Below, in pieces: positions 8,608 to 28,378 of a DNA stretch of 64,000 nt. How positions within the stretch are numbered: the stretch's first letter is position 1; every line of letters begins with the position of its first letter. Where the stretch lies: positions 186,001-250,000 of the forward strand of contig JABLXG010000004.1 in the NCBI GenBank assembly GCA_013178165.1. Direction: 5' to 3'. Below the pieces are notes generated by a model. The model saw only the letters and a list, made by a program, of their open reading frames with translations, was not told the DNA's origin and did no database searches. The stretch is from Anaerolineae bacterium. GTDB taxonomy: Bacteria; Chloroflexota; Anaerolineae; Aggregatilineales; Ch27. A program made the position numbers and the translations under genes.

Positions 8608-10005
8608 TTAGCCAGCCATGGTGGCATGAGAAGAGCCGGTTATGGCCGCCTGATCATCGCCTGGCGGACAGGGATCGGGCAGACGCTCTTCCGGCCCGGC
8701 TGGTAGCATGACCAGGCCGGAGATCATCTTGGGGTAGAAGTCTGTGCTCTTCTGAGGCATTTTCTCCCCGTGGGCGGCCACCGCCTTGATCTGAGCCATG
8801 GTGGTTGGGCTGAGGAAGATGGCGAACTCCCCCCGGCCAGCGTTGATGTTGTCCACCGGGCGCTGCGGATCGCGGTGATAGCGGATCAGAGACTTGTCCT
8901 CGATGCCCGCTGGCGGGACACCGGCGGCCTGCTCCAGCAGCAGGCGGTGGGCGATGGTCACGGCCAGCGAGCGCCACGCCTGTGAGCGATCGGGCGCCAG
9001 GGTATCGAGGATGGCTTCGTCGCGCAGGGTCAGGACGTAGAAGCCGACCTCTGGCCCGCCATAGAAGCCGAAGGCATGGCCACGCGGGTGGGCATTGACG
9101 GCGGCCAGCATCGCTTCCAGATCGGCGGCCGGCGCGATGGCGAAGTGCGCCGCAGCGCGGGCCAGCACCTCAGCCGGGCTGACCGCACCGAAATCGTGAA
9201 TCTCGCGGTGGGTGGGCAGGATGATCAGTCCCGGATCGTCCATACTGACCAGCGTTGCGCTGATGAAATTGACGGCGGCGTCCGGGGGCAGCGCCTGCTG
9301 TTCCTGGCGGTAGGCCAGGGCGGTCTCGTAGCGGTGATGCCCGTCGGCGATAATCAAGCCCTGCAGCGGGGCGAGAATGCTCCCCACAGCGTGGATGATC
9401 TCCGGATCGGTGATGACCCAGACGCGCTGGCGGACCTGGTTCTCGAACAGTTCGGTCGCGTCAATGGCCGGAGTGCGATCGGCGATGGCGGCGCGGAGCA
9501 GGGTGTTAACGCGATTCTCCCGATCAGGGTAGAGGACAAAGATCTGCTCTGGCTGCACCTGCAGGGCGTGCAGCAAGCGCAGGCGATCGGCTCTGGGACC
9601 GCGATGGGTACGCTCGTGGGGCAGGATGACGCCTTCCTCAAACTCATGCAGACCCAGCGCAGCGATCAGGCCCAGCCGCACGTGTGTTCGGCCAGCAATG
9701 GGGAAGGTTTGCTCGTAAACGTACAGGGCCGGGCGATCTTCGCGGATCAGGATTCCTTCAGCCAGCCAGTTCTCATACCGCTGGCGAGCGCAGCGATAAT
9801 TGCCGTTGGTGGCGCAGGGGCCGGGCAGGCCGGTGTCTTCATTGTGGCCGAGGATAATCCCGGTGATGTTGTAGGGACTGAGTTGCCGGTAGCGGGCTGC
9901 CAGATCGGGGCCGATCCGGTCGTAGGGCTGGCTGAGCACGTCATCCAGCCGGGGGATGCGGGCAGGGTTGTAGCGAACCCCACGGAACGGTTTGATCACC
10001 GCCAT
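8608..10005 (-). CDS. DUF1015 family protein
   Basis: The protein starts MAVIKPFRGVRYNP and carries SQPYDRIGPD, the ILGHNEDTG block, LPHERTHRGPRADRL and IADGHHRYETAL. These are characteristic of DUF1015, a family of unknown function present in many bacteria. ATG 10005 has AAGGG 7 bases upstream; a TTG two codons earlier is a less likely start. The length is 465 residues. It is upstream of the lipoprotein gene on the same strand. Confidence 0.88.
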   Translation of the reverse strand: MAVIKPFRGVRYNPARIPRLDDVLSQPYDRIGPDLAARYRQLSPYNITGIILGHNEDTGLPGPCATNGNYRCARQRYENWLAEGILIREDRPALYVYEQTFPIAGRTHVRLGLIAALGLHEFEEGVILPHERTHRGPRADRLRLLHALQVQPEQIFVLYPDRENRVNTLLRAAIADRTPAIDATELFENQVRQRVWVITDPEIIHAVGSILAPLQGLIIADGHHRYETALAYRQEQQALPPDAAVNFISATLVSMDDPGLIILPTHREIHDFGAVSPAEVLARAAAHFAIAPAADLEAMLAAVNAHPRGHAFGFYGGPEVGFYVLTLRDEAILDTLAPDRSQAWRSLAVTIAHRLLLEQAAGVPPAGIEDKSLIRYHRDPQRPVDNINAGRGEFAIFLSPTTMAQIKAVAAHGEKMPQKSTDFYPKMISGLVMLPAGPEERLPDPCPPGDDQAAITGSSHATMAG

Positions 10006-10057
10006 AGCCAATCCCTTTCACAGCAGGTCGCCCCGGAGCAGGGGCGGGTGTGGCGTG

Positions 10058-10094
10058 AAAGCTCCGCCGATCGCAGGCCGCGCATCGGCGGAGC
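10058..10094 (-). terminator. Terminator of the lpdA transcript
   Basis: GCTCCGCCGAT and ATCGGCGGAGC form a perfect 11-bp stem (10061-10071 with 10084-10094). On the minus strand TTTCAC follows. It lies 34 bases downstream of the lpdA stop codon. Confidence 0.65.
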
Positions 10095-10127
10095 ACAGGT
10101 GTAGCAAGGCAGGGCATGATCCGCGCC

Positions 10128-11528
<1,401 letters not shown>

Positions 11529-11651
11529 GTGCTGCTCCATCGCTGGGGCGGGCAGGAAGCCCGCCGGCCTGTCAGATGCGCCGAGTCTAGCGCCTTTTGG
11601 GGCCAGACTCAACCGGACAAGAGAACCCCATGATTGGCGTGTTCAGTATCC

Positions 11652-12324: not shown

Positions 12325-14367
12325 TTACGGCGAGAGGCGCCCGGCGACCAGTTCAGCGATATCGTTTACCCTGACGGATGCATCGCCGTCTGGCACAGGC
12401 TTTCCGGTTGAATCAACGGCGCTGTGCAGCATGATGGCGCAGAACGGACAGGCCGTGACGACCGTCTGCGCGCCAGTGGCGGCGGCTTCTGCCAGGCGCA
12501 TGGCATTGATCGGGCGCTCCTGGCGGGTTTCCATCCAAACCTGAGCGCCACCCCCGCCGCAACACAGGCTTCGCTGGCGGTGACGTGGCATTTCCGCCAG
12601 GGTGACGCTTTCCAGCGCCAGCAGAGTCTCGCGGGGGGCGTCATATTCGCCATTGTAGCGGCCCAGGAAGCATGGGTCGTGGTAGGTGATCACCCCCTTC
12701 CGGCGGCGGCGATCCCATTTTTGTAGCGAAAGCCGGCCCGCCCTCAGCAGGCCAGCGATGTAGGCGCTGTGGTGTATGACGGCGTAATGGCCACCGAAAT
12801 CGGGATACTCGTTGCGGAAGGTGTGGTAGCAGTGCGGGCACTGGGTGACGATCAGGTTGAACGTGTAGCGGTTGAAGGTATCGATCAGCGCGGCAGTGGC
12901 CTGCTGATAGAGCGCCTCCTGGCCGCTGCGGCGCGCCCATTCGCAGGTGCAGCGTTCTTCCTCGCCCAGCACGGCGAAGTCCACGCCTGCGGCGCGGAAA
13001 ATCTGGATCATCGCCCGGCTGACGCGCTGGCCTGCCGGGTCGTACGCCCCGGCGCAGCCGACCCAGTAGAGCACGTCAACACTGTGCCGGTCGGCCAGCA
13101 ACGGCACGTCCAGCCCGGCGGCCCAGTCCAGGCGCGTCCCGCGCGGATGGCCCCAGGGATCGCCGGCGCGTTCGGCGCGAGTTAAGGCCCCAACTAGGCG
13201 ATCGGGCGGTCGTCCTTCCATCAGGACCAGGTGCTGGCGCATGGCCAGGATGTCGGCCAGCGGCTCGTTGCCCACCGGGCAGATCTCCACGCAGGCGGCA
13301 CAGGCGGTGCAGGCCCAGACCCCTTCAGGGGGCAGGGCGCTCTCAAATAGCGTGACGGGCGACTCCTTGCCAGCGGCCAGGAGTGCGCCGTGTTCCCTCA
13401 GAAAATAGCGCTTGTTGACCTCCAGCGCGGCGGGCGAAAGCGGTGTCCCGGCAGCATAGGCCGGGCAAACATCCTGGCAACGGTTGCACATGATGCAGGC
13501 GTAAGCATCGACGATCTGCGTACGGCTGAGGTGTTCGATGCGTTCCGCCCCGAAGCTCTCGATTGTCTCATCATCAAGGGGCAGGGGGGGCATGGCGCCG
13601 GGGCTGCGCCGTTCCGGGCGGGTCAGGTAGTTGACGGGGGCGAGCAGCAGGTGAAAGTGCTTGGTACGCGGGAACCAGGGCACGAAGACCAGGATCAGGC
13701 CGATGGCCAGCCAGAACATGACATGCTCGCCGACCTCCAGTAGCGCCGGATTGCCCCCGCTGAACAGGCCGCTGATCGCGCTGGCAAAAGGTTGGAAGGC
13801 ATCCGGACCGTGCCGGGCTACCGTCAGCGCCTGCCCCAGGAAGCGTGCGCCAACGTGCCCCAGGATAAACGCGCCGACGATGGCCGAGTCGCGGCGGATG
13901 CCCCCGGCAGCAATGTCCGGATGGAGCAGGATGTCCGGGCGGAAGGTCAGGCGAGGGTCTCCGGCGATGAAGCGGCGGACGAGGAAGTAGAGCATGCTGA
14001 GGATCACGGCGACGCTGAGTACGTCAGCCAGCAGGCGGTAGGCGTCGGCCAGACCGTTCGTCCCTGGAAAGGCGTAATCCGCCAGGAAGCCTTCCAACAC
14101 ATCGCCCAGGTTGACCAGGAGATAGAACAGGAAGCCCCAGGCGATGGTGGCGTGCAGGATACTGGTGAACGGGCGGGCGTTCAGCACCGTACGCTGCGTG
14201 ATCGTGACCTCAAGCGCCTGAAGTATCCGCCGGGCCAACCCGTTCAGGTGCAACGCGCCGTTGCCCCGCCGGATCACGGCGGCGACCTGCCCGAAGCTAT
14301 GCCAGGTCAGGTACAGGGAGATGATGGCCAGGATGACAAACACGACTTTCTCAGGGAGGGAAAGCAC
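12325..14367 (-). CDS. Membrane Fe-S oxidoreductase, EtfAB:quinone oxidoreductase-like (HdrD-like)
   Basis: The N-terminal third has about six membrane helices of the NarI type. Two ferredoxin-type [4Fe-4S] motifs follow (CIMCNRCQDVCP and CTACAACVEICP, near residues 295 and 355). Two CCG domains come last: one with ERCTCEWARRSG and QCPHCYHTF, the other with DPCFLGRYNGEYD and LCCGGGG. This order matches fused proteins proposed to pass electrons from electron transfer flavoprotein to menaquinone. GTG 14367 has AAGGAGG 6 bases upstream and is preferred to a longer frame at 14406, giving 680 residues. Beta-oxidation genes lie 5-14 kb away, which supports that role by inference. The etfAB genes are not here. 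Confidence 0.85.
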   Translation of the reverse strand: MLSLPEKVVFVILAIISLYLTWHSFGQVAAVIRRGNGALHLNGLARRILQALEVTITQRTVLNARPFTSILHATIAWGFLFYLLVNLGDVLEGFLADYAFPGTNGLADAYRLLADVLSVAVILSMLYFLVRRFIAGDPRLTFRPDILLHPDIAAGGIRRDSAIVGAFILGHVGARFLGQALTVARHGPDAFQPFASAISGLFSGGNPALLEVGEHVMFWLAIGLILVFVPWFPRTKHFHLLLAPVNYLTRPERRSPGAMPPLPLDDETIESFGAERIEHLSRTQIVDAYACIMCNRCQDVCPAYAAGTPLSPAALEVNKRYFLREHGALLAAGKESPVTLFESALPPEGVWACTACAACVEICPVGNEPLADILAMRQHLVLMEGRPPDRLVGALTRAERAGDPWGHPRGTRLDWAAGLDVPLLADRHSVDVLYWVGCAGAYDPAGQRVSRAMIQIFRAAGVDFAVLGEEERCTCEWARRSGQEALYQQATAALIDTFNRYTFNLIVTQCPHCYHTFRNEYPDFGGHYAVIHHSAYIAGLLRAGRLSLQKWDRRRRKGVITYHDPCFLGRYNGEYDAPRETLLALESVTLAEMPRHRQRSLCCGGGGAQVWMETRQERPINAMRLAEAAATGAQTVVTACPFCAIMLHSAVDSTGKPVPDGDASVRVNDIAELVAGRLSP

Positions 14368-14418
14368 CGTCTGCCTCCTTGATCGGGTAATGGGCGCGGA
14401 GCGCAAGGGACTGGTTTC

Positions 14419-19351: not shown

Positions 19352-19379
19352 TTGACGCCGTCATGGGGCGGTTTATAAT
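19352..19379 (+). promoter_or_regulatory. Promoter of the TetR gene
   Basis: TTGACG (19352-19357), a 16-bp spacer and a perfect TATAAT (19374-19379). The -10 overlaps the left arm of the operator palindrome. Confidence 0.75.
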
Positions 19380-19398
19380 CAAATCGTTGTTTGATTAT
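19375..19398 (+). promoter_or_regulatory. Predicted TetR operator (24-bp inverted repeat)
   Basis: ATAATCAAA and TTTGATTAT are perfect 9-bp inverted arms with a 6-bp centre (TCGTTG). The site covers the -10 element and the expected start of transcription of the regulator gene, so bound protein would block its own promoter. AT-rich symmetry is unusual in this GC-rich sequence. Confidence 0.75.
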
Positions 19399-19419
19399 CG
19401 CCAGCTGGAGCGTAAGACG

Positions 19420-20019
19420 ATGGCACGCAGACCTGCCAGCCAGACCGTCAGCCGCCGGGCCATTCTGGACGCCGCGGCGCGCGTTTTTCATGAGCGCGGC
19501 TATCACGGGGCTACGATGCAGGACATCAGCGCCGCTGTTGGCCTGACGGCTGGCAGCCTGTACCACCATTTCAGCGGCGGCAAAGAAGCAATTTTCCTGG
19601 CGGTGCTGGAAGCCGGGCTGGCCCAGGTGACTGCTGATCTCAAGGCCATTGTGGCGTTGCCGCTGCCGCCGGATGAGAAGTTGCGCCGCGCCATTTGCGC
19701 CCATGTCCTCAGCGTGACCGAACACGTGGCGGTCGCTGCACTGATGGTCTTTGAGATGCGTACGGCGCTCAGCCTGCCGGAGGCGCCAGCTCGTTACCTG
19801 GCCGCCCGCGACGCCTTCGAAGGGCTGTACCGCCAGATGATCGCCGAGGGCATTGCTGCGGGGGTGTTCCGCCCGGTGGATGTCGGCGTGTTCACCCGCA
19901 CCCTGCTGGGTGCGGCCAACTGGGTGAGCGTGTGGTATCGCCCGGAAGGGCGGCTGACCGGCGTTGACATCGCCGGGCAGATCGCCGATATTTTTCTCAA
20001 CGCATTGCGGGCAGGGTAA
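19420..20019 (+). CDS. TetR/AcrR family transcriptional regulator
   Basis: The 199-residue protein has an N-terminal TetR DNA-binding domain with the helix-turn-helix region ATMQDISAAVGLTAGSLYHHF at about residues 36-56 and a helical ligand domain after it. Similar regulators with this type of C-terminal domain often sense acyl-CoA and control fatty-acid or sterol breakdown. Here it precedes a beta-oxidation cluster, so an FadR-like job is a reasonable inference. ATG 19420 is chosen because the longer frame from 19363 would run through the promoter and operator. Autoregulation is likely. Confidence 0.85.
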   Translation: MARRPASQTVSRRAILDAAARVFHERGYHGATMQDISAAVGLTAGSLYHHFSGGKEAIFLAVLEAGLAQVTADLKAIVALPLPPDEKLRRAICAHVLSVTEHVAVAALMVFEMRTALSLPEAPARYLAARDAFEGLYRQMIAEGIAAGVFRPVDVGVFTRTLLGAANWVSVWYRPEGRLTGVDIAGQIADIFLNALRAG

Positions 20020-20050: not shown

Positions 20051-20284
20051 GTGTCACCATCATCACTGCGTACATCACTGCTTATGGTGGATCGGGACAG
20101 GTGCGGCATCTGCGGGTGCTGCGTGCCGGTATGCGCCACAATTGCCCTGGTGCTGCACGACGCGTATCTGGAAGTCATCAACGATCGCTGTACCTCCTGC
20201 CAGAAGTGCATTGTGGTCTGTCCCACTCATGCGCTTTCGGAAGTTGCGCTATCGGCAGTGGCGGCGCAGGGAGGGGAGCGGTGA
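20051..20284 (+). CDS. Two-cluster 4Fe-4S ferredoxin
   Basis: The 77-residue protein has two ferredoxin motifs, CGICGCCVPVC and CTSCQKCIVVCP, each able to hold a [4Fe-4S] cluster. GTG 20051 has AGGGGAAG upstream and gives a compact ferredoxin; the frame upstream overlaps the TetR gene. Its stop overlaps the GTG start of the flavoprotein gene by 4 bases. Such coupling suggests that it supplies electrons to, or takes them from, that flavoprotein. Confidence 0.85.
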   Translation: MSPSSLRTSLLMVDRDRCGICGCCVPVCATIALVLHDAYLEVINDRCTSCQKCIVVCPTHALSEVALSAVAAQGGER

Positions 20285-21468
20285 AACTGCGGGAAGCTTA
20301 CGATGTCATCGTAATCGGGGGTGGCCCGGGCGGCGCAGCAGCGGCGATCACAGCAGCCCGGCGCGGGTTGAGCGTCCTCCTGATTGAAAAGCGGCAGGAG
20401 ATTGGCACGCCCGTTCGTTGTGCGGAAGCGATTGGCCGCGACCAGGTGGCGCCGTTCATCGCCCTGAACCCGGCCTGGATCGCCGCCGAGATCGACGCCT
20501 TTCGCATCTTCGGGCCGTCCGGCCAGTCGGTGCGTGTGCCGCCGACATCCCCCACGATCGTGGTTGAGCGCAAGCTTTTCGACCGTGAGCTGGTCAATGC
20601 GGCGGTGCAAGCCGGGGCGACAGCACGGGCCATGACGCGGGCAACCGGCCTGATCATCGAAGATGGCTTTGTGCGCGGCGTGAAGATGATCAGCCTGAGC
20701 CGGGAGGAAACAGTGCGGGCCAGAGTCGTCATCGGCGCGGACGGGCCGGAATCGCAGGTGGGGCTATGGGCTGGGCTGAGTACCATGCCACGCATGGCCG
20801 ATTACTACACGGGATTTGAATACCTGCTGGCTGGTATCCCGCTCGACGATCCCCGCGAATGCCAGTACCACATCGGCAACGATCTCGCGCCAGGCGGGTA
20901 TGCCTGGGTCTTCCCCAAAGGGCCGGATAAAGCCAATGTCGGCCTGGTGATCACAGCCACCCATGAGAAGAACGGCCGGAGCGCCCAGGATTATCTGGAT
21001 GCTTTTGTCGAGCGGCGCTTCCCTGGCGCGTCTGTGCTTGCTGTGATGCTGGGCGGCATTCCGGTCGGCGGCACGGTCAAGGAGCTGGTCGGGAATGGGG
21101 TGATGCTGGTTGGCGATGCAGCCCACCAGGCCGAGCCGATCACCGGCGGTGGGATCAACCTGGCGATGTTCGCCGGGGAAATGGCCGCCAACGTTGCCGC
21201 CGATGCCATCGCCGCCGGGGACTGGTCAAAGAAGGCGCTGGAAGCTTATCCAAGGCGCTGGCATCAGGAGCACGGGCGCGCCATCAAGAGCATGGCTGCG
21301 CTGCGCCACAGCGTGCTGAAGTTTTCCGACGAGCGCTATGACCGGCTGGTAGCCCTGGCGGCGGAACTGCCGCTGGCGGAGATGAGCGCGTTTGACATCA
21401 TCCTCCGCGTGCTGCGCCATGATCCTGCTCTGTTGCTGGCAGCGCGGGAGTTCCTCATCCCGACCTGA
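20281..21468 (+). CDS. Geranylgeranyl-reductase family flavoprotein
   Basis: The 395-residue protein has an N-terminal FAD motif VIVIGGGPGGAAAAITAARRG, the family signature GTPVRCAEAIGR near residue 43, a central GYAWVFPKGPDKANVGL and the second FAD contact LVGDAAHQAEPITGGGI. Members reduce double bonds of isoprenoid lipids or quinone tails, often with a ferredoxin partner. FixC/ETF-quinone-oxidoreductase-like enzymes are distant relatives. The overlap with a ferredoxin gene fits either job. Its place in a beta-oxidation cluster makes an electron-transfer role worth considering. Confidence 0.8.
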   Translation: MKLREAYDVIVIGGGPGGAAAAITAARRGLSVLLIEKRQEIGTPVRCAEAIGRDQVAPFIALNPAWIAAEIDAFRIFGPSGQSVRVPPTSPTIVVERKLFDRELVNAAVQAGATARAMTRATGLIIEDGFVRGVKMISLSREETVRARVVIGADGPESQVGLWAGLSTMPRMADYYTGFEYLLAGIPLDDPRECQYHIGNDLAPGGYAWVFPKGPDKANVGLVITATHEKNGRSAQDYLDAFVERRFPGASVLAVMLGGIPVGGTVKELVGNGVMLVGDAAHQAEPITGGGINLAMFAGEMAANVAADAIAAGDWSKKALEAYPRRWHQEHGRAIKSMAALRHSVLKFSDERYDRLVALAAELPLAEMSAFDIILRVLRHDPALLLAAREFLIPT

Positions 21469-21512: not shown

Positions 21513-21576
21513 TGGACTGTGCGGATTACCCGGCGGCTTTCCTGCCGGAAGAGACGCGGAGAAGGAGCAGCCCGGT

Positions 21577-22668
21577 ATGGTGTCGTTTACCCCCACCGAA
21601 GAACAGCAGATGTTGATCGAGACGATTCACCGCTACGCCGAGGCGGAGGTGCGACCAATCGCCCACGAGGCGGACGAAACGGGCGAAATCCCCGCCGGGG
21701 TGTTGCGGGCCGGCTGGGAGATCGGCCTGATCCCGGCGGCGCTGCCGGAGGCGTACGGCGGTCTTGGCGAGCACGAGGCGCTGACTGGTGTCCTGGCGGC
21801 GGAGGAACTGGCCTGGGGTGACCTGGCCGTGGCGCTCAAGGTGCTGGCTCCTGCTCTGTTGGCCTACCCGGTGCTGATAGCCGGGACGGAGGCGCAACAG
21901 GCTGAACTGCTGCCGCTTTTCGCCGGTGATTATGTCCCCATGACCGCTGCGCTGGCCGAGCCAGGGCTGTTCTTTGATCCTCGCGCCCTGGCGACAACGG
22001 CTACCGCCCAGGATGGCGGCTATGTTCTCAATGGCGTCAAGAGCAATGTCCCCCTGGCGGCGGAAGCGCACAAGCTGCTTATCTATGCTCGCGAGGACAG
22101 TGGGGCGGTCGGCGCGTACATCGTCGATGCCGGGGCGGACGGGCTGACGATAGGCGAGCGGGAGAAGCTGATGGGCATCCGCGGCCTGCCAACGTATCCG
22201 GTCACGCTCTCCGGCGTGCGCGTCGATGCGGTGCGGCGACTGGGCGGGGAAGCCCCCCTGCCGTATGAGGCGATTCTCAACCGCCAGCGGGTGGCCCTGG
22301 CGGCGCTGGCGGTCGGTGTGGCACGGGCGGCTTTTGAGTACGCACGCGACTATGCCAAAGGGCGCGTCCAGTTCGGTGTGCCAATCGCCACCAAACAGGC
22401 CATTGCTTTCATGCTGGCCGAGATGGCGATTGAGGTCGATGCAGCGCGGCTGATGACCTGGGAAGCGGCCTGGAAGCTTGACCAGGGGCAGGATGCCACG
22501 CGGGAGGCGTACCTGGCGAGCCGTTACGCCGCCGATACGGTCGTCTTCGTGGCGGATAGCGCCGTGCAGACGCTGGGCGGTTACGGCTTCATCCGCGAAT
22601 ACCCGGTGGAGCGCTGGCTGCGGGATGGGCGGGGATTTGCCATGTTCTGTGGCCTGGCAACCGTCTGA
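21577..22668 (+). CDS. Acyl-CoA dehydrogenase-like protein lacking catalytic Glu
   Basis: The 363-residue protein has the full acyl-CoA dehydrogenase fold: an N-terminal helical domain, the beta domain with NGVKSNVPLA, and the C-terminal helical domain with GRVQFGVPIATKQAIAFMLA and GGYGFIREYPVERWLRD. The usual ending IYEGT is replaced by MFCGLATV, so Cys358 stands where the catalytic Glu belongs. The alternative Glu site of isovaleryl-CoA-type enzymes is Gln237 (LNRQRVALA). With no catalytic base visible it may be the non-catalytic half of a pair with the next gene. ATG 21577 has AAGGAG upstream. Confidence 0.85.
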   Translation: MVSFTPTEEQQMLIETIHRYAEAEVRPIAHEADETGEIPAGVLRAGWEIGLIPAALPEAYGGLGEHEALTGVLAAEELAWGDLAVALKVLAPALLAYPVLIAGTEAQQAELLPLFAGDYVPMTAALAEPGLFFDPRALATTATAQDGGYVLNGVKSNVPLAAEAHKLLIYAREDSGAVGAYIVDAGADGLTIGEREKLMGIRGLPTYPVTLSGVRVDAVRRLGGEAPLPYEAILNRQRVALAALAVGVARAAFEYARDYAKGRVQFGVPIATKQAIAFMLAEMAIEVDAARLMTWEAAWKLDQGQDATREAYLASRYAADTVVFVADSAVQTLGGYGFIREYPVERWLRDGRGFAMFCGLATV

Positions 22669-22710
22669 GTGGTGCATTTCGGGTCTTGAATTGGGCAGGG
22701 AGCGCGGACT

Positions 22711-23964
22711 ATGGCAATCAGCTTTGCAATGCCTGAGCGTGTGGAGCGCGAACGGATGATGGCCCAGGCGCTGGCCGAAGGGATCATGCGCCCGGTTTCC
22801 CGCCAGCTGGACGAAAACGAGCATGAGCGTCCGGTCGATTTCATCAAGCTGATCTGGCCGGTGATGCGCGATCAACAAGCCCGCGCTCTTGACCGGCTCA
22901 AAGCGCCGCCGGACCAGGAGAAGGAGAAAAAGCCACGCAGTCCATACCTGGCCATGATGGTGCAGATCGAGGCGCTCTCCTGGGGCGATGCCGGGCAGTA
23001 CCTGTGTATCCCATCGCCGCTGCTGGCCGGGGCGGCCATTGAAGCGGTTGGCACGCCGGAGCAGAAGGAGCGCTTCCTGCGGCGTTTCGCCGAGGGCGAT
23101 GCCCCTAGGTGGGGCGCGATGGCCATGACCGAGCCAAACGCCGGTTCCGATACCAAAGCGATCGAAACGACGGCGGTGCTCGACCCGGAGACCCACGAGT
23201 GGATCCTCAATGGCGAAAAGATCTTCATCACCAGCGGCGGCCTGGCGCTCAGGGAATCGGATGGCATCGTTGTTGTCTGGGCGACGATCGACCGTTCGGC
23301 TGGCCGGGCCGGGATGCGCCCGTTCGTTGTGGAAGCCGGGACGCCCGGCGTAACCGTATCCAAGCCAGAGATCAAGCATGGCATCCGCGCCAGCGACACG
23401 GTTTCAATCAAGTTCGAGAACTGCCGTATCCCATACGATAACTTGCTGGGTGATCCGGAAGTCCGGCGGGAGGGTAGCCGTGAGGGCTTCCGGGGGGCTA
23501 TGGCAACATTCGACGCCTCCCGCCCGCTGGTGGCCGCCAGTGCGCTGGGCGTGGGCCGCGCCGCGCTGGAGTTCGTCAAAGAGACGCTTCACCAGCACGG
23601 CATCGATATCCCCTATGATCAGCCCTACCACAAGCTAAGCGCCATCCAGCGCGATGTGCTGGAGATGGAGGCACAACTCAAAGCGGCCTATCTGCTCACC
23701 CTGCGGGCCACCGCCATGCTGGACGAAGGGCTGCGCAACAGCCTGGAAGCGTCGATGGCCAAGGCCAAAGCTGGTAAGGCGGTTACGAAGGTGACGCAAA
23801 AGGCCGTCGAACTGCTGGGTATGATGGGCTACAGCCGCGAGTGGCTGGTGGAGAAGTGGATGCGCGACGCCCGGATCAACGACATCTATGAGGGCACCGG
23901 GCAGATCAATCTGCTGATTGTGGCCCGCCGCATCCTGGGGTATAGCAGCAGCGAACTGAGCTGA
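22711..23964 (+). CDS. Acyl-CoA dehydrogenase
   Basis: This FAD enzyme makes the first oxidation of beta-oxidation and passes electrons to electron transfer flavoprotein. It has the substrate-loop signature AMTEPNAGSD, the beta-domain NGEKIFITSGG and the C-terminal RINDIYEGTGQINLLI with the catalytic Glu394. At 417 residues it is slightly longer than common short-chain enzymes, because of an N-terminal extension rich in charged residues. It starts 42 bases after the first acyl-CoA dehydrogenase gene. It likely forms an operon, and perhaps a heteromeric enzyme, with that protein. Confidence 0.92.
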   Translation: MAISFAMPERVERERMMAQALAEGIMRPVSRQLDENEHERPVDFIKLIWPVMRDQQARALDRLKAPPDQEKEKKPRSPYLAMMVQIEALSWGDAGQYLCIPSPLLAGAAIEAVGTPEQKERFLRRFAEGDAPRWGAMAMTEPNAGSDTKAIETTAVLDPETHEWILNGEKIFITSGGLALRESDGIVVVWATIDRSAGRAGMRPFVVEAGTPGVTVSKPEIKHGIRASDTVSIKFENCRIPYDNLLGDPEVRREGSREGFRGAMATFDASRPLVAASALGVGRAALEFVKETLHQHGIDIPYDQPYHKLSAIQRDVLEMEAQLKAAYLLTLRATAMLDEGLRNSLEASMAKAKAGKAVTKVTQKAVELLGMMGYSREWLVEKWMRDARINDIYEGTGQINLLIVARRILGYSSSELS

Positions 23965-24027: not shown

Positions 24028-26421
24028 ATGGGCTATGCGATTCGCCGGGCAGCGGTGATCGGCTCCGGCACCATGGGCAGCGGCATCGCCGCCCTGCTGG
24101 CGGGTATGGGCATCCCGGTATTGTTACTGGACATCCCTGCACCGGGGACGCAGCCCGGCGATCCGCCGGAGGCACGGAATGCCATCGTACAGAGAAGCCT
24201 GGAGGCGCTCGGCAAGAGTCGCCCGGCCCAGCTTTTCGCCGCGGAAGACGCCGATCTGATTATCCCCGGCAACGTGGACGATGACCTGGCCCGCCTGGCG
24301 GACGCCGACTGGATCATCGAGGCCATCGTTGAGCGGCTGGAGACCAAGCAGGAACTGATGGCGCGCCTCGCTGCCGTCCGGCGACCGGATGCGATCGTCA
24401 GCACCAACACCTCCGGCCTGAGCATCAATGCCATCGCCGCCAGGCAGGAGGCCGGCTTCCGGCGGCACTTCCTGGGCACGCATTTCTTCAACCCGCCGCG
24501 CTACCTGCAGCTGCTGGAGATCATCCCCGGTGCGGAAACCGACCCGGCGCTGGTGGCGTTCATGGCTGCGTTCGGGCGCGATGTGCTGGGCAAGGGCGTG
24601 GTGATCGGCAGGGACACACCCAACTTCATTGCCAACCGGATGTTGAACCTGGTCGGTGCCTTTACGGTAGCTTATGCCGTTCAGCACGGCTTTACCGTGG
24701 GGGAGATTGATGCCCTGACCGGCCCCCTGATCGGGCGTCCCAAGACAGCGACCTTCCGGTTGCTCGATCTGGTGGGCATTGACGTGCTGGCGCATGTCAG
24801 CCGCAACCTGTACGAGGCCATCCCGGATGATCCGGCCCGTGAGGTGCTGGTGGATGCCGGGCTAACCCGCGTCCTGGATCGGATGGTGGCCGAAGGCTGG
24901 CTGGGCGGCAAGGCCGACCAGGGCTTTTACAGAAAGGTCTTTGTCGACGGCGAGCGCCAGTTCTGGGAGTTGAACCTGGAGACGTTCGAGTACGTGCCGC
25001 CCGCAAGTGTCCGCTTTGAGAGTGTGGGCAAGCACCGCAAGATCGAGGATACCGGGGCGCGTATCCGGGCGTTGATCGCGGAGGAAGATCGCGCCGGGCT
25101 GTTCCTGTGGGCGCTGCACGCCTTCTATCTGACGTATGCGGCGCAGATGGCCGGTGTGATCGCCGATGACCTGCCCAGCCTGGATCGCGCGGCGCGATGG
25201 GGTTTCGGGCATGAGCTTGGTCCGTTCGAAATCTGGGATGCCATTGGCGTGGCTGAGTCCGTTCCGCGCCTGGAAGCGGATGGCTACGCCGTGCCCGCCT
25301 GGGTGAAGGAGATGCTGGCTGGCGGCGGCGCTACGTTCTACCGCCGCGATGGGCACGGGATCGTGACCGGCGTTTACGACCCGGTGGCGAAGCGGTACCG
25401 CGATCTGGCCCCTGACCGGCAGGTGGTGGTCATCGCCGATCTAAAGGCGGCGGGCAGGATCGTGGAGGAGAACGCCGGGGCCAGCCTGATTGACATGGGC
25501 GATGGGGCGTTGCTGGTGGAGTTTCACACCAAAGCCAACGCCTTTGACGCCGATATCCTGGCCATGCTGCAGCGCGGACTGGCCCGGCTGGAAGATGACT
25601 TTGATGCGCTGGTGATCGGCAACCAGGGCCAGCACTTCTCACTGGGAGCCAACATCATGCTCATTGCGATGATGGCTCAGTCCGGGCAGTGGGACGAACT
25701 GGATCGGGTGATTCGCGAGGGGCAGGCGATCATGGAGGCGCTGCGCCACGCTCCCAGGCCGGTCGTGACTGCGCCCTTCGGCATGGCGCTGGGCGCGGGC
25801 GCAGAAGTCACGATGGCCTGTACAGCCTGCGTAGCCCACGCCGAGCTGTACATTGGCCTGGTGGAGTTCGGGCTGGGCCTGATCGCGGCCTGGACGGGCA
25901 CTAAGGAGATGCTGCGGCGGGTGGTTAGCCCGGTCATGCGCACGCCCGGCGCCGATGTGCTGCCACACCTGCAGCAGGTCTTTGAGCAGATCGCGCTAGC
26001 CAAAGTCAGTGAAAGCGCCAAACAGGCGCGGGCAATGGGCTTCCTCAGCCCGGCGGACCGGATCGTCATGAGCCGCGACCAGCATCTGGCGGAAGCCAAA
26101 CGTACAGCCCTGGCGCTGGCGCCCGGTTACCGCCCGGCTCTGCCGGGCAAGGTCTGGGCGGCGGGGCGGGATGCACTGGCGGCGCTCAAGCTGGCTGTGT
26201 GGCAAATGGTGCAAAGCGGTTACGCCAGTGAGCATGACGCCAAGGTTGCGGGCAAGCTGGCTTATGTCCTGACTGGCGGCGATCTAAGTGCGCCAGGCTG
26301 GGTGGATGAGCAGGTCATTCTTGACCTGGAACGAGAGGCGTTCCTGAGCCTGGCCGGGGAGCCAAAAACACAGGAGCGCCTGTGGTATATGCTCCAGTAC
26401 AACAAGCCGCTACGCAACTAG
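24028..26421 (+). CDS. fadN: 3-hydroxyacyl-CoA dehydrogenase / enoyl-CoA hydratase, FadN-type
   Basis: The 797-residue fusion carries a 3-hydroxyacyl-CoA dehydrogenase at the N-terminus (NAD motif AVIGSGTMGSGIAALLAG, then HFFNPPRYLQLLEIIPG) and an enoyl-CoA hydratase-like domain at the C-terminus. This is the order of Bacillus FadN, the reverse of FadB/FadJ. In the hydratase domain both Glu positions appear kept (GAGAEVTMAC and VEFGLGLI), but the usual PxGGGT oxyanion stretch reads AAWTGT. The hydratase may therefore be altered in activity. It catalyses, or is expected to catalyse, the second and third steps of fatty-acid oxidation. Confidence 0.9.
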   Translation: MGYAIRRAAVIGSGTMGSGIAALLAGMGIPVLLLDIPAPGTQPGDPPEARNAIVQRSLEALGKSRPAQLFAAEDADLIIPGNVDDDLARLADADWIIEAIVERLETKQELMARLAAVRRPDAIVSTNTSGLSINAIAARQEAGFRRHFLGTHFFNPPRYLQLLEIIPGAETDPALVAFMAAFGRDVLGKGVVIGRDTPNFIANRMLNLVGAFTVAYAVQHGFTVGEIDALTGPLIGRPKTATFRLLDLVGIDVLAHVSRNLYEAIPDDPAREVLVDAGLTRVLDRMVAEGWLGGKADQGFYRKVFVDGERQFWELNLETFEYVPPASVRFESVGKHRKIEDTGARIRALIAEEDRAGLFLWALHAFYLTYAAQMAGVIADDLPSLDRAARWGFGHELGPFEIWDAIGVAESVPRLEADGYAVPAWVKEMLAGGGATFYRRDGHGIVTGVYDPVAKRYRDLAPDRQVVVIADLKAAGRIVEENAGASLIDMGDGALLVEFHTKANAFDADILAMLQRGLARLEDDFDALVIGNQGQHFSLGANIMLIAMMAQSGQWDELDRVIREGQAIMEALRHAPRPVVTAPFGMALGAGAEVTMACTACVAHAELYIGLVEFGLGLIAAWTGTKEMLRRVVSPVMRTPGADVLPHLQQVFEQIALAKVSESAKQARAMGFLSPADRIVMSRDQHLAEAKRTALALAPGYRPALPGKVWAAGRDALAALKLAVWQMVQSGYASEHDAKVAGKLAYVLTGGDLSAPGWVDEQVILDLEREAFLSLAGEPKTQERLWYMLQYNKPLRN

Positions 26422-26540
26422 CAGCGAGTGTGGCAGGTTTCTGTCGTAGGATACAGTGCGTAACCGAAATTGATGGGCAGCATGTATACGGCTGGATACT
26501 CCCCTGTCGTCGTTGTCGGTGTGGCGCTGCGGAGCACATC

Positions 26541-27197
26541 ATGAGCGAGCGTTTTGACCAGTTCATCGCGCATCTGGCGGAGGCGGAAGTCGCCGCGGAT
26601 GCCTGTAACCAGTACGCCTATGCTGACGGCTTCAACGCTGTCCGCCGGGAGAACCTACGCCTGTACCTGCACCAGATGGCGGCCCGCGATCCGAAGGTAC
26701 TGCTGGTGGGGGAGGCGCCCGGCTACCAGGGTTGCCGTCGCTCCGGCCTGAATTTCACCAGCGACCATCTGATGCTTAACCCACCGCCTGGCGTGCCGAT
26801 CCTGGGCGCGGCGGCGGGTTACCGCATGTCGCCAGAATATGACCGCCCGCGCAAAGAGCCGAGCGCGGCGATCGTCTGGGAGGCTATCGCCCGCACCGGC
26901 CTCCTGCCCGTGATCTTCGCCGCGTATCCGTTTCATCCCTTTCAGGCGGGCAAGCCGCTTTCCAACCGTGCCCCACGCGCGGATGAACTGGCGCAGGGAC
27001 GTATCTTTCTGGCGGAGATGCTGGGCCTATTCGATTTCACGATAGTGCTGGCGGTGGGCAATATAGCCGAGCGATCGCTTTCCGCGCTGGGCGTGGACTT
27101 CATCAAGCTGCGCCACCCGTCGCATGGCGGCAAGGCGGCGTTTATGGCTGGCTTTGCGGCGGTGGCCCGGCAGGTGGGTAAGGAGCATGACCGATGA
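26541..27197 (+). CDS. Uracil-DNA glycosylase superfamily protein
   Basis: The 218-residue protein has motif [17 protein letters not shown], followed by LNFTSD, and a C-terminal RHPSHGG corresponding to the HPS-type motif II that inserts into the DNA helix. This points to excision of uracil or related bases from DNA. No four-cysteine iron-sulfur ligand set, as in family 4 or 5 enzymes, is seen, so the subfamily is open. ATG 26541 is preferred; the longer frame begins in a non-conserved region. Its stop overlaps the thiolase ATG by 4 bases, which is odd for a DNA repair gene inside a fatty-acid operon. Confidence 0.8.
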
Positions 27198-28378
27198 GAG
27201 ATGCGGTGATTGTGGCGCTGACACGGACGGCGGTAGGCCGCGCCAGGAAGGGCGCAACCCGCAACACCCGTCCCGATGATCTGGCGGCGGCGGTGATCCG
27301 CGAACTGCTGCGCCAGACGGAAGGGCGGCTTGACCCGGCGCTGATCGATGATCTGGTACTGGGCTGCGCCTTCCCGGAAGGTCCGCAAGGGCTGAACATT
27401 GCTCGCGTGGTGGGCATCCTGGTCGGGTTGCCGGTGAGCGTCCCGGCGCAGACGATCAACCGCTTCTGCGCCAGTGGTCTGCAGGCCATCGCCAGCGCGG
27501 CGGAGCGGATCATCACCGGCGGCGCGGATGTGATCGTTGCCGGTGGGGTGGAATCGATGAGCGCGGTACCGATGGCCGGTTTTAGGCCCAGCCCTCACCT
27601 GAAGCTGGTGGAGGAGCACCCGGAAGCCTACATCAGCATGGGCCTGACAGCGGAGCGCGTGGCCGAGGAATACCGCGTGACCCGCGAGGAGCAGGATGCG
27701 TTTGCCTACGACAGCCACCGCAAGGCAGTCGCCGCCCAGGCAGCCGGCAAATTCGCGGCGGAGATCGTGCCCATCGAACTTGAGGAAGTCACCGTCGGGC
27801 CGGACGGCCGTTTGCAACGCCAGCGGATGGTCTTTGACCGCGACGAGCATCCCCGCCCGGATACCTCTCTGGAAGCTCTGGCGGCGCTCAAGCCGGTCTT
27901 CAGGGAGGGGGGCACGGTCACGGCGGGCAATTCGTCGCCGCTGAGCGATGGCGCAGCGGGGGTGATCATCATGGAGGCCGGGATGGCCGCCCGGCTGGGC
28001 CTGACGCCGCTGGCGCGCTTCGTGGCCTTCGATGTGATCGGGGTGCGTCCGGAGGTGATGGGCATCGGGCCGGTGGAAGCGGCGCCGCGCGCCCTCAGGC
28101 GAGCCGGGCTGACCCTGGCTGACCTCGACCTGATCGAGCTAAACGAAGCCTTTGCCGCGCAGAGTGTGGCCGTCATCCGCGAGCTGGGGCTGGACCCGGC
28201 AATCGTCAATGTCAACGGCGGCGCAATTGCCCTGGGGCATCCGCTGGGCGCAACCGGGGCCAAGCTGACGGTTCAACTGCTGCATGAACTGCGACGGCGC
28301 GGCGGCAGGTACGGCCTGGTCACCATGTGTATCGGCGGCGGGATGGGTGCTGCGGGTATCTTTGAGTGCCTGAACTGA
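27194..28378 (+). CDS. fadA: Acetyl-CoA C-acyltransferase (thiolase)
   Basis: Thiolase cleaves 3-oxoacyl-CoA to acetyl-CoA and a shortened acyl-CoA, the last step of beta-oxidation. The nucleophilic Cys is in [13 protein letters not shown] (about residue 92), the His in [18 protein letters not shown] and the second Cys in [13 protein letters not shown]. The length of 394 residues is normal. It overlaps the glycosylase gene and closes the cluster that begins with the TetR regulator. Confidence 0.95.

Follow-up and report, generated by a model that had tools for sequence, protein, structure and literature searches.

Two adjacent acyl-CoA dehydrogenase homologs of an Anaerolineae bacterium with reciprocally divided FAD contacts, a probable split-site heteromer

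The stretch of DNA analysed here (the window) is 64,000 nt long and belongs to contig JABLXG010000004.1 of an Anaerolineae bacterium. It carries two neighbouring genes for acyl-CoA dehydrogenase homologs on the same strand, designated A (first enzyme, subunit A) and B (second enzyme, subunit B), with 42 bases between the stop codon of A and the ATG of B:

21577–22668 (+), A, putative FAD-site-defective acyl-CoA dehydrogenase homolog, 363 aa; ATG at 21577, stop at 22666–22668
22711–23964 (+), B, putative catalytic acyl-CoA dehydrogenase subunit, 417 aa; ATG at 22711, stop at 23962–23964

Very probably the two products make up an obligate heteromer, most likely A2B2 with two flavin adenine dinucleotide (FAD) molecules at the A-B interfaces, in which Glu394 of B would be the catalytic base and an electron-transfer flavoprotein (ETF) the acceptor, and which would catalyze the first step of beta-oxidation. 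The residue pattern of the FAD site, the co-occurrence of the two genes, their neighbourhood, the gene content of the genome, and the predicted fit of the two chains are the basis of this explanation. From these we infer the assembly, the number of FADs, the substrate, and the electron acceptor; the A2B2 stoichiometry is suggested by analogy with steroid enzymes. New here is a putative split-site heteromer whose base is MCAD-type and whose gene neighbours belong to general beta-oxidation.

According to passages of PMC13027082, FAD in human SCAD is touched on its flavin side by S155, S161, and T187 of one monomer, and R297, Q365, and G369 reach that FAD from the adjacent monomer. The corresponding alignment columns are called here cis (contacts with the own flavin) and trans (contacts with the FAD of the neighbour), with human SCAD numbering. 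Contacts were counted on distinct sequences, namely 98 of A, 84 of B, and 25 of ordinary homologs; several loci of the contig scan duplicate genomes of the relatives and phylum searches. The codons concerned are:

21973–21975 (+), A Phe133, replaces the cis Ser (Ser161 in human SCAD); Phe in 97/98
22051–22053 (+), A Pro159, replaces the cis Thr (Thr187 in human SCAD); Pro in 94/98
22363–22365 (+), A Arg263, trans contact kept (Arg297 in human SCAD); 98/98
22567–22581 (+), A Gln331-Thr-Leu-Gly-Gly335, trans contacts kept (Gln365 and Gly369 in human SCAD); Gln331 and Gly335 in 98/98
23128–23148 (+), B Thr140 to Ser146, cis contacts kept; Thr140 and Ser146 in 84/84
23230–23232 (+), B Thr174, cis contact kept; 83/84
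23809–23823 (+), B Glu367 to Met371, trans site lost (Gln to Glu, Gly to Met/Pro)

Besides the Phe and Pro replacements, the S155 column of A contains Ser in no ortholog and Thr in four. At the trans sites of B, Arg was found in 6 of 84 orthologs, Gln in none (75 have Glu), and Gly in two (64 have Pro); the trans-Arg column is the least certain column in the alignment of B. Ordinary homologs keep both contact sets in all 25 sequences, except for one Ser in place of Thr. Four A orthologs ending in LEGT (L098, L101, L102, and L103), left out of the 105-row A set and checked separately, have the trans Arg, Phe, Gln, and Gly (4/4), the cis-site Phe (4/4), and mostly the Pro (3/4). Judged by this conservation, the FAD contacts are shared out between two subunits. 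Each homodimer would therefore be without half of every FAD site, and only the A-B combination would restore a whole site with the Glu of B over it.

It is improbable that A and B work independently as homomeric enzymes, with A using another base or a non-dehydrogenase chemistry. A does keep the domains and fold of acyl-CoA dehydrogenases, other chemistry occurs in the family (reductases, desulfinases), and Asp or Glu stands at the base site in 53 of 98 A orthologs, but the cis contacts of A and the trans contacts of B are gone, so neither homodimer would have a normal FAD site, and each of the 26 carriers in the phylum sample described below has A and B together. We consider very improbable a second alternative, in which B would be active as a homomeric dehydrogenase and A would be a non-flavin accessory (chaperone, regulator, or ETF adaptor) with no part in completing the active site. 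In its favour, B has all cis contacts and the Glu; against it, the trans contacts lost in B (Gln to Glu in 75/84) are exactly those kept in A (98/98), and at that site the human SCAD change Q365H blocks tetramer formation, as stated in part of PMC13027082.

The initial annotation had pointed to Cys358 and Gln237 of A and to Glu394 of B as occupants of the known catalytic-base positions. The open reading frames (ORFs) and the alignment agree with this:

22648–22650 (+), A Cys358, MCAD-type catalytic-Glu position; variable among orthologs
22285–22287 (+), A Gln237, IVD-type base position; never acidic in 98 distinct orthologs
23890–23892 (+), B Glu394, putative MCAD-type catalytic base; Glu in 84/84 distinct orthologs

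At the IVD-type position B has Ser270. The column of Cys358 in the 98 A orthologs contains 29 Asp, 24 Glu, 22 Thr, nine Leu, two each of Cys, Ser, Tyr, Val, Phe, and His, and one each of Ala and Asn, whereas that of Gln237 contains 57 Ser, 24 Met, five Ala, four Gln, four Gly, three Thr, and one Ile. Going by the alignment, Cys358 is incidental and not a conserved feature of A, and its role as a new catalytic base was rejected because the site is not conserved across A orthologs. The pair of the window has a single Glu-bearing subunit, but not every relative does, as A has Glu in 24 of 98 orthologs; Glu is also at the MCAD-type position of the four LEGT-ending ones. The missing Glu had been taken as the sign of a heteromer. 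Its absence from A stands, but it is more probably a by-product, because the own flavin site of A is gone.

A ends exactly five residues past the catalytic-Glu position in 105 of 105 rows and in the four separately checked ones; at least 16 residues follow this position in the 25 ordinary homologs and 23–24 in B. A C-terminal frameshift or truncation artefact was ruled out, since A ends at this same point in 105/105 rows, and the short end is therefore ancestral and not a local truncation.

Orthologs were searched for in 61 relatives and in 251 genomes of the phylum, and strict orthologs were counted for co-occurrence. The phylum sample has A in 26 of 251 genomes and B in the same 26. Among the relatives, 35 of 38 carriers have both genes; A without B was found in G004 (contig end) and G049 (65% complete), and B without A in G025 (contig edge). 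At most 30 loci per search entered the alignments; seven further strict A orthologs of the relatives (G010, G027, G031, G044, G047, G049, and G058) are therefore in this count and outside the alignments. The alignment sample includes 55 loci with clear A orthologs, that of the window among them, with 51–100% identity. The adjacent arrangement described by the initial annotation recurs, as B is downstream of A on the same strand in 52 of the 55 loci; two of the others stop at a contig edge, and G059 has its A and B on separate contigs. Distances of A and B over 82 pairs correlate with r = 0.92, as expected for co-inheritance, and shared species history contributes to this value. Left out of the alignments were A fragments (L083, L100, and L134), open-ended sequences (L112 and L125), and extra B-like rows (L081 and L110). 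Locus L110, from a gammaproteobacterial bin, has a single A gene followed by two B genes in tandem (9178–11636). The one locus inspected for its A-B gap, L063, has there an opposite-strand ORF of 272 aa (9112–9930, −) with no Pfam match.

Records with the pair in the contig scan are also labelled as Pseudomonadota (Alcanivorax, Caulobacterales), Myxococcota, Thermodesulfobacteriota (Smithella), Actinomycetota, Binatota, and Bacteroidota. These non-Chloroflexota records are mostly metagenome bins, and single labels may be wrong. Strains carrying the pair are Alcanivorax sp. DSM 26293 (L117) and Herpetosiphon geysericola DSM 7119 (L067). A plasmid search with A gave matches below 60% identity only.

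Two TGA codons separate A from B in a shared reading frame, and the read-through chain was folded by AlphaFold with 48 rows. The model has pLDDT 89 and pTM 0.91, and linker 369–376 is its only segment below 50. A control chain built alike and of equal size, in which B is followed by residues 1–348 of the protein from the next gene (32 rows), reached pLDDT 79.9 and pTM 0.55. The C-terminal region of B, with the catalytic loop, was modelled more confidently beside A (ten-residue means of 93, 85, 82, 80, 90, and 70 over residues 741–795) than in the control (83, 69, 74, 63, and 66 over residues 361–410). Co-folding of the two subunits, suggested earlier as a check, gave in this form a confidently predicted A-B arrangement, which does not imply a preference over A-A or B-B. 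The proposal of the initial annotation that one Glu-bearing and one Glu-less subunit form a heteromer gains support from the reciprocal loss of FAD contacts, the co-occurrence, and the same-strand adjacency, and also from this model against its low control and from the same split in steroid and PimCD-type pairs. Fold searches of the A-B fusion retrieved single-chain acyl-CoA dehydrogenases only, among the matches listed, and do not bear on the A-B packing. ChsE/IpdE chains were not among the fold matches listed, which has no bearing on membership.

PF00441, PF02770, and PF02771 were found in both A and B above the curated cut-offs, and with N-terminal, middle, and C-terminal Pfam domains both belong to the acyl-CoA dehydrogenase superfamily. 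Among solved structures, A is closest to 2dvl (E 1.7e-60) and B to 5ol2 (E 1.1e-57), both ordinary dehydrogenases. Neither protein reached the curated cut-off of the named acyl-CoA dehydrogenase equivalogs in NCBIfam; the best score was with the acryloyl-CoA reductase model, at 210 bits for A and 233 bits for B of 640 needed. An antisense ORF of 617 aa (21526–23379, −) was rejected as a gene on its overlap with the conserved A and B alone and most likely reflects the high G+C content of the coding strand.

The source assembly is 4.19 Mb long in 52 contigs and is 98.6% complete. Searches of the genome with PF00441 and PF02770 gave two places each, which are A and B; no acyl-CoA dehydrogenase other than the pair was found in this genome. 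The ETF family is represented by one adjacent gene pair on another contig. Around A and B are:

19363–20019 (+), TetR regulator with weak FadR similarity; 17 of 54 pair loci have a homolog nearby
24028–26421 (+), FadN-like 3-hydroxyacyl-CoA dehydrogenase/enoyl-CoA hydratase fusion, best match with the Staph_FadB model; homolog in 19 of 54 pair loci
27194–28378 (+), acetyl-CoA acyltransferase (thiolase), the beta-oxidation gene that closes the run; 17 of 54 pair loci have a homolog

The 54 pair loci come from the contig scan; many are cut by contig ends, and neighbours were counted within the available DNA. One of the 17 thiolase homologs, that of L107, is a remote match on the other strand. 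Except for L107, loci with TetR, FadN, or thiolase neighbours bear Chloroflexota record titles, and the order TetR-A-B-FadN-FadA recurs in Chloroflexota loci. The pair had been said not to be the sterol cluster, which agrees with its MCAD-position base and its place within a general beta-oxidation gene run.

Just upstream of A are genes for a small two-cluster ferredoxin of 66 aa (20084–20284) and a flavoprotein of the geranylgeranyl-reductase (GGR) family (20290–21468), possibly an electron-transfer pair serving the operon. An ORF at 26382–27197 overlaps both of its neighbours, the FadN-like and thiolase genes, at their ends; its weak match to the uracil-DNA-glycosylase (UDG) superfamily (PF03167, E 5.8e-07) makes it an odd member of a beta-oxidation gene run. 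No GGR or UDG homolog was seen in the 54 pair loci. Directly upstream of A, an SCP2-domain protein is encoded in L067 (7284–7904, Herpetosiphon) and L097 (7117–7782, Smithella), and it may be a lipid-acyl carrier partner of the pair. Farther from the pair in the window, an iron-sulfur protein of 693 aa with a 4Fe-4S dicluster and a cysteine-rich CCG domain (12325–14406, −) may be the quinone-side acceptor for ETF; its domain make-up is partly that of mycobacterial EtfD, described in part of PMC8593149 as a membrane oxidoreductase needed for beta-oxidation.

In the proposed mechanism, each FAD would lie at an A-B interface. B would hold the isoalloxazine ring, bind the acyl-CoA, and supply the base Glu394, while A, with its own flavin site unable to bind, would contact the remaining FAD half through Arg, Gln, and Gly. 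The cofactor would be held by Thr140, Ser146, and Thr174 of B and, at its other half, by Arg263, Gln331, and Gly335 of A. Glu394 would take the alpha proton of the B-bound acyl-CoA, and the beta hydride would pass to FAD, which is the chemistry of the acyl-CoA dehydrogenase family. Electrons would then go from FAD to ETF, a step suggested by the gene run and the single ETF pair, and the enzyme would carry out the first oxidation of fatty-acid beta-oxidation, before the FadN-like and thiolase proteins of the same run.

Several points weigh against the A-B heteromer or narrow it. The assembly, FAD content, and activity are read from sequences and a model, and the substrate from the neighbouring genes. 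The model is a read-through fusion of one A and one B; its pTM points to compatibility, and any two acyl-CoA dehydrogenase chains might pack as a family dimer. The contact pattern has exceptions, with Ser at the Phe position in one of 98 A orthologs and Arg in the trans column in six of 84 B orthologs. A relic catalytic role is formally possible in those A orthologs with Glu at the base position. In 11 relatives about 800–900 bases separate A and B, and strict co-transcription is not universal.

Heteromers of this kind are described for steroid breakdown. In passages of PMC11153573 on ChsE4-ChsE5 and ChsE1-ChsE2, the alpha subunit accounts for the isoalloxazine, the Glu, and the substrate, and the beta subunit binds ADP-ribose. 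Parts of PMC8399759 give two FAD sites for the steroid acyl-CoA dehydrogenase tetramer and describe CasC, a fused bile-acid enzyme with one catalytic half and the other half needed for FAD binding. For PimCD, a heterotetramer was suggested in print (PMC12543098, in part). Steroid alpha and beta are labels of this analysis for 15 loci taken from IpdE2-model matches and their neighbours, four of them above the IpdE2 cut-off; the PimD sample also has 15 loci, with three above the model cut-off. Steroid beta-type rows keep Arg, Phe, and Gln in 20/20 and have lost the base, and Gln is lost in 5/6 alpha-type rows. Over the 15 PimCD-type loci, PimD-type rows without exception keep Arg, Phe, Gln, and Gly, and PimC-type rows without exception have lost the trans Gln. 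The IpdE2 model NF050027 matched in 30 of 296 Actinomycetota genomes, in four above the cut-off; it had no match in 299 Pseudomonadota genomes, which does not show absence. The Alcanivorax genome of L117 (G310) has 29 PF00441 matches and several further adjacent dehydrogenase pairs, two of them PimD-like, a possible rich set of heteromers.

It is therefore to be asked whether A and B are distant relatives of the steroid/bile-acid or PimCD heteromers, acting on steroid-like or dicarboxylic acyl-CoA substrates. The cofactor split is identical in kind, and the SCP2-domain proteins of the Herpetosiphon and Smithella loci would suit such a role. The base speaks against it, as an acidic residue at the IVD-type column, with no Glu at the MCAD-type column, was found in 15/15 PimC-type and 5/6 steroid alpha-type rows, but B has Ser270 and the MCAD-type Glu (84/84). 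Trees were computed on subsets of 90 rows and of 59 rows, the latter with diagnostic columns blanked; the groups had been named after an earlier tree. In the 59-row tree, PimC is with steroid alpha (SH-aLRT 100) and PimD with steroid beta (99), whereas A and B each form one clade (100) among ordinary dehydrogenases (SH-aLRT 99) and group with neither; long branches are a caveat here. A constrained clade of A, steroid beta, and PimD was rejected (p-AU 0.0065), whereas one of B, steroid alpha, and PimC was not (p-AU 0.09). With the beta-oxidation neighbours in the window counted too, this relationship is very unlikely. The tree position and the constraint tests thus favour, but do not prove, a second, separate origin of the A/B split.

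We lean, with moderate confidence, to the joint reading that this second split arose from MCAD/SCAD-type ancestors, that the pair is a general fatty-acid enzyme present in many bacterial phyla, and that it is the sole acyl-CoA dehydrogenation route of this organism. In the portions of the cited papers available, heteromeric acyl-CoA dehydrogenases are a steroid and bile-acid speciality, with one dicarboxylic-acid suggestion; literature searches, with subscription journals mostly outside their reach, found no report of a heteromer from Chloroflexota or for general fatty acids. The A/B pair would represent the same division of labour in another branch of the family, with another base position, in a genome with no second such enzyme found. 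This suggests that reciprocal loss of half-sites for a shared cofactor can happen more than once. As a rule, the half of the FAD contacts that is kept may spot annotated acyl-CoA dehydrogenases that are half an enzyme.

The window run resembles the fadN-fadA-fadE beta-oxidation operon of Bacillus in having a FadN-like fusion and a thiolase with the dehydrogenase step, but the FadE step is replaced by the two-gene A/B pair. As far as described in the sources, the mycobacterial ChsE1-ChsE2, ChsE4-ChsE5, and IpdE1-IpdE2 (alpha2beta2) have, like A/B, paired subunits with the catalytic Glu in one alone and FAD at an alpha-beta interface split between subunits; the reciprocal residue pattern around IpdE2-model matches is the same. 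They differ in the base, which is IVD-type in the alpha-type rows examined, in the steroid substrates, and in the lineage in the tree. PimCD and its beta-proteobacterial relatives are likewise adjacent pairs with the same reciprocal split, but their base is IVD-type with Gly at the MCAD-type site, and they cluster with the steroid pairs. CasC is one fused polypeptide with a steroid substrate, while A and B are encoded separately. Ordinary homotetrameric SCAD/MCAD-type enzymes share the fold, the MCAD-type Glu (with B), and the closest structures, 2dvl and 5ol2, but each of their subunits has both halves of the FAD site, where A and B appear to have one each.

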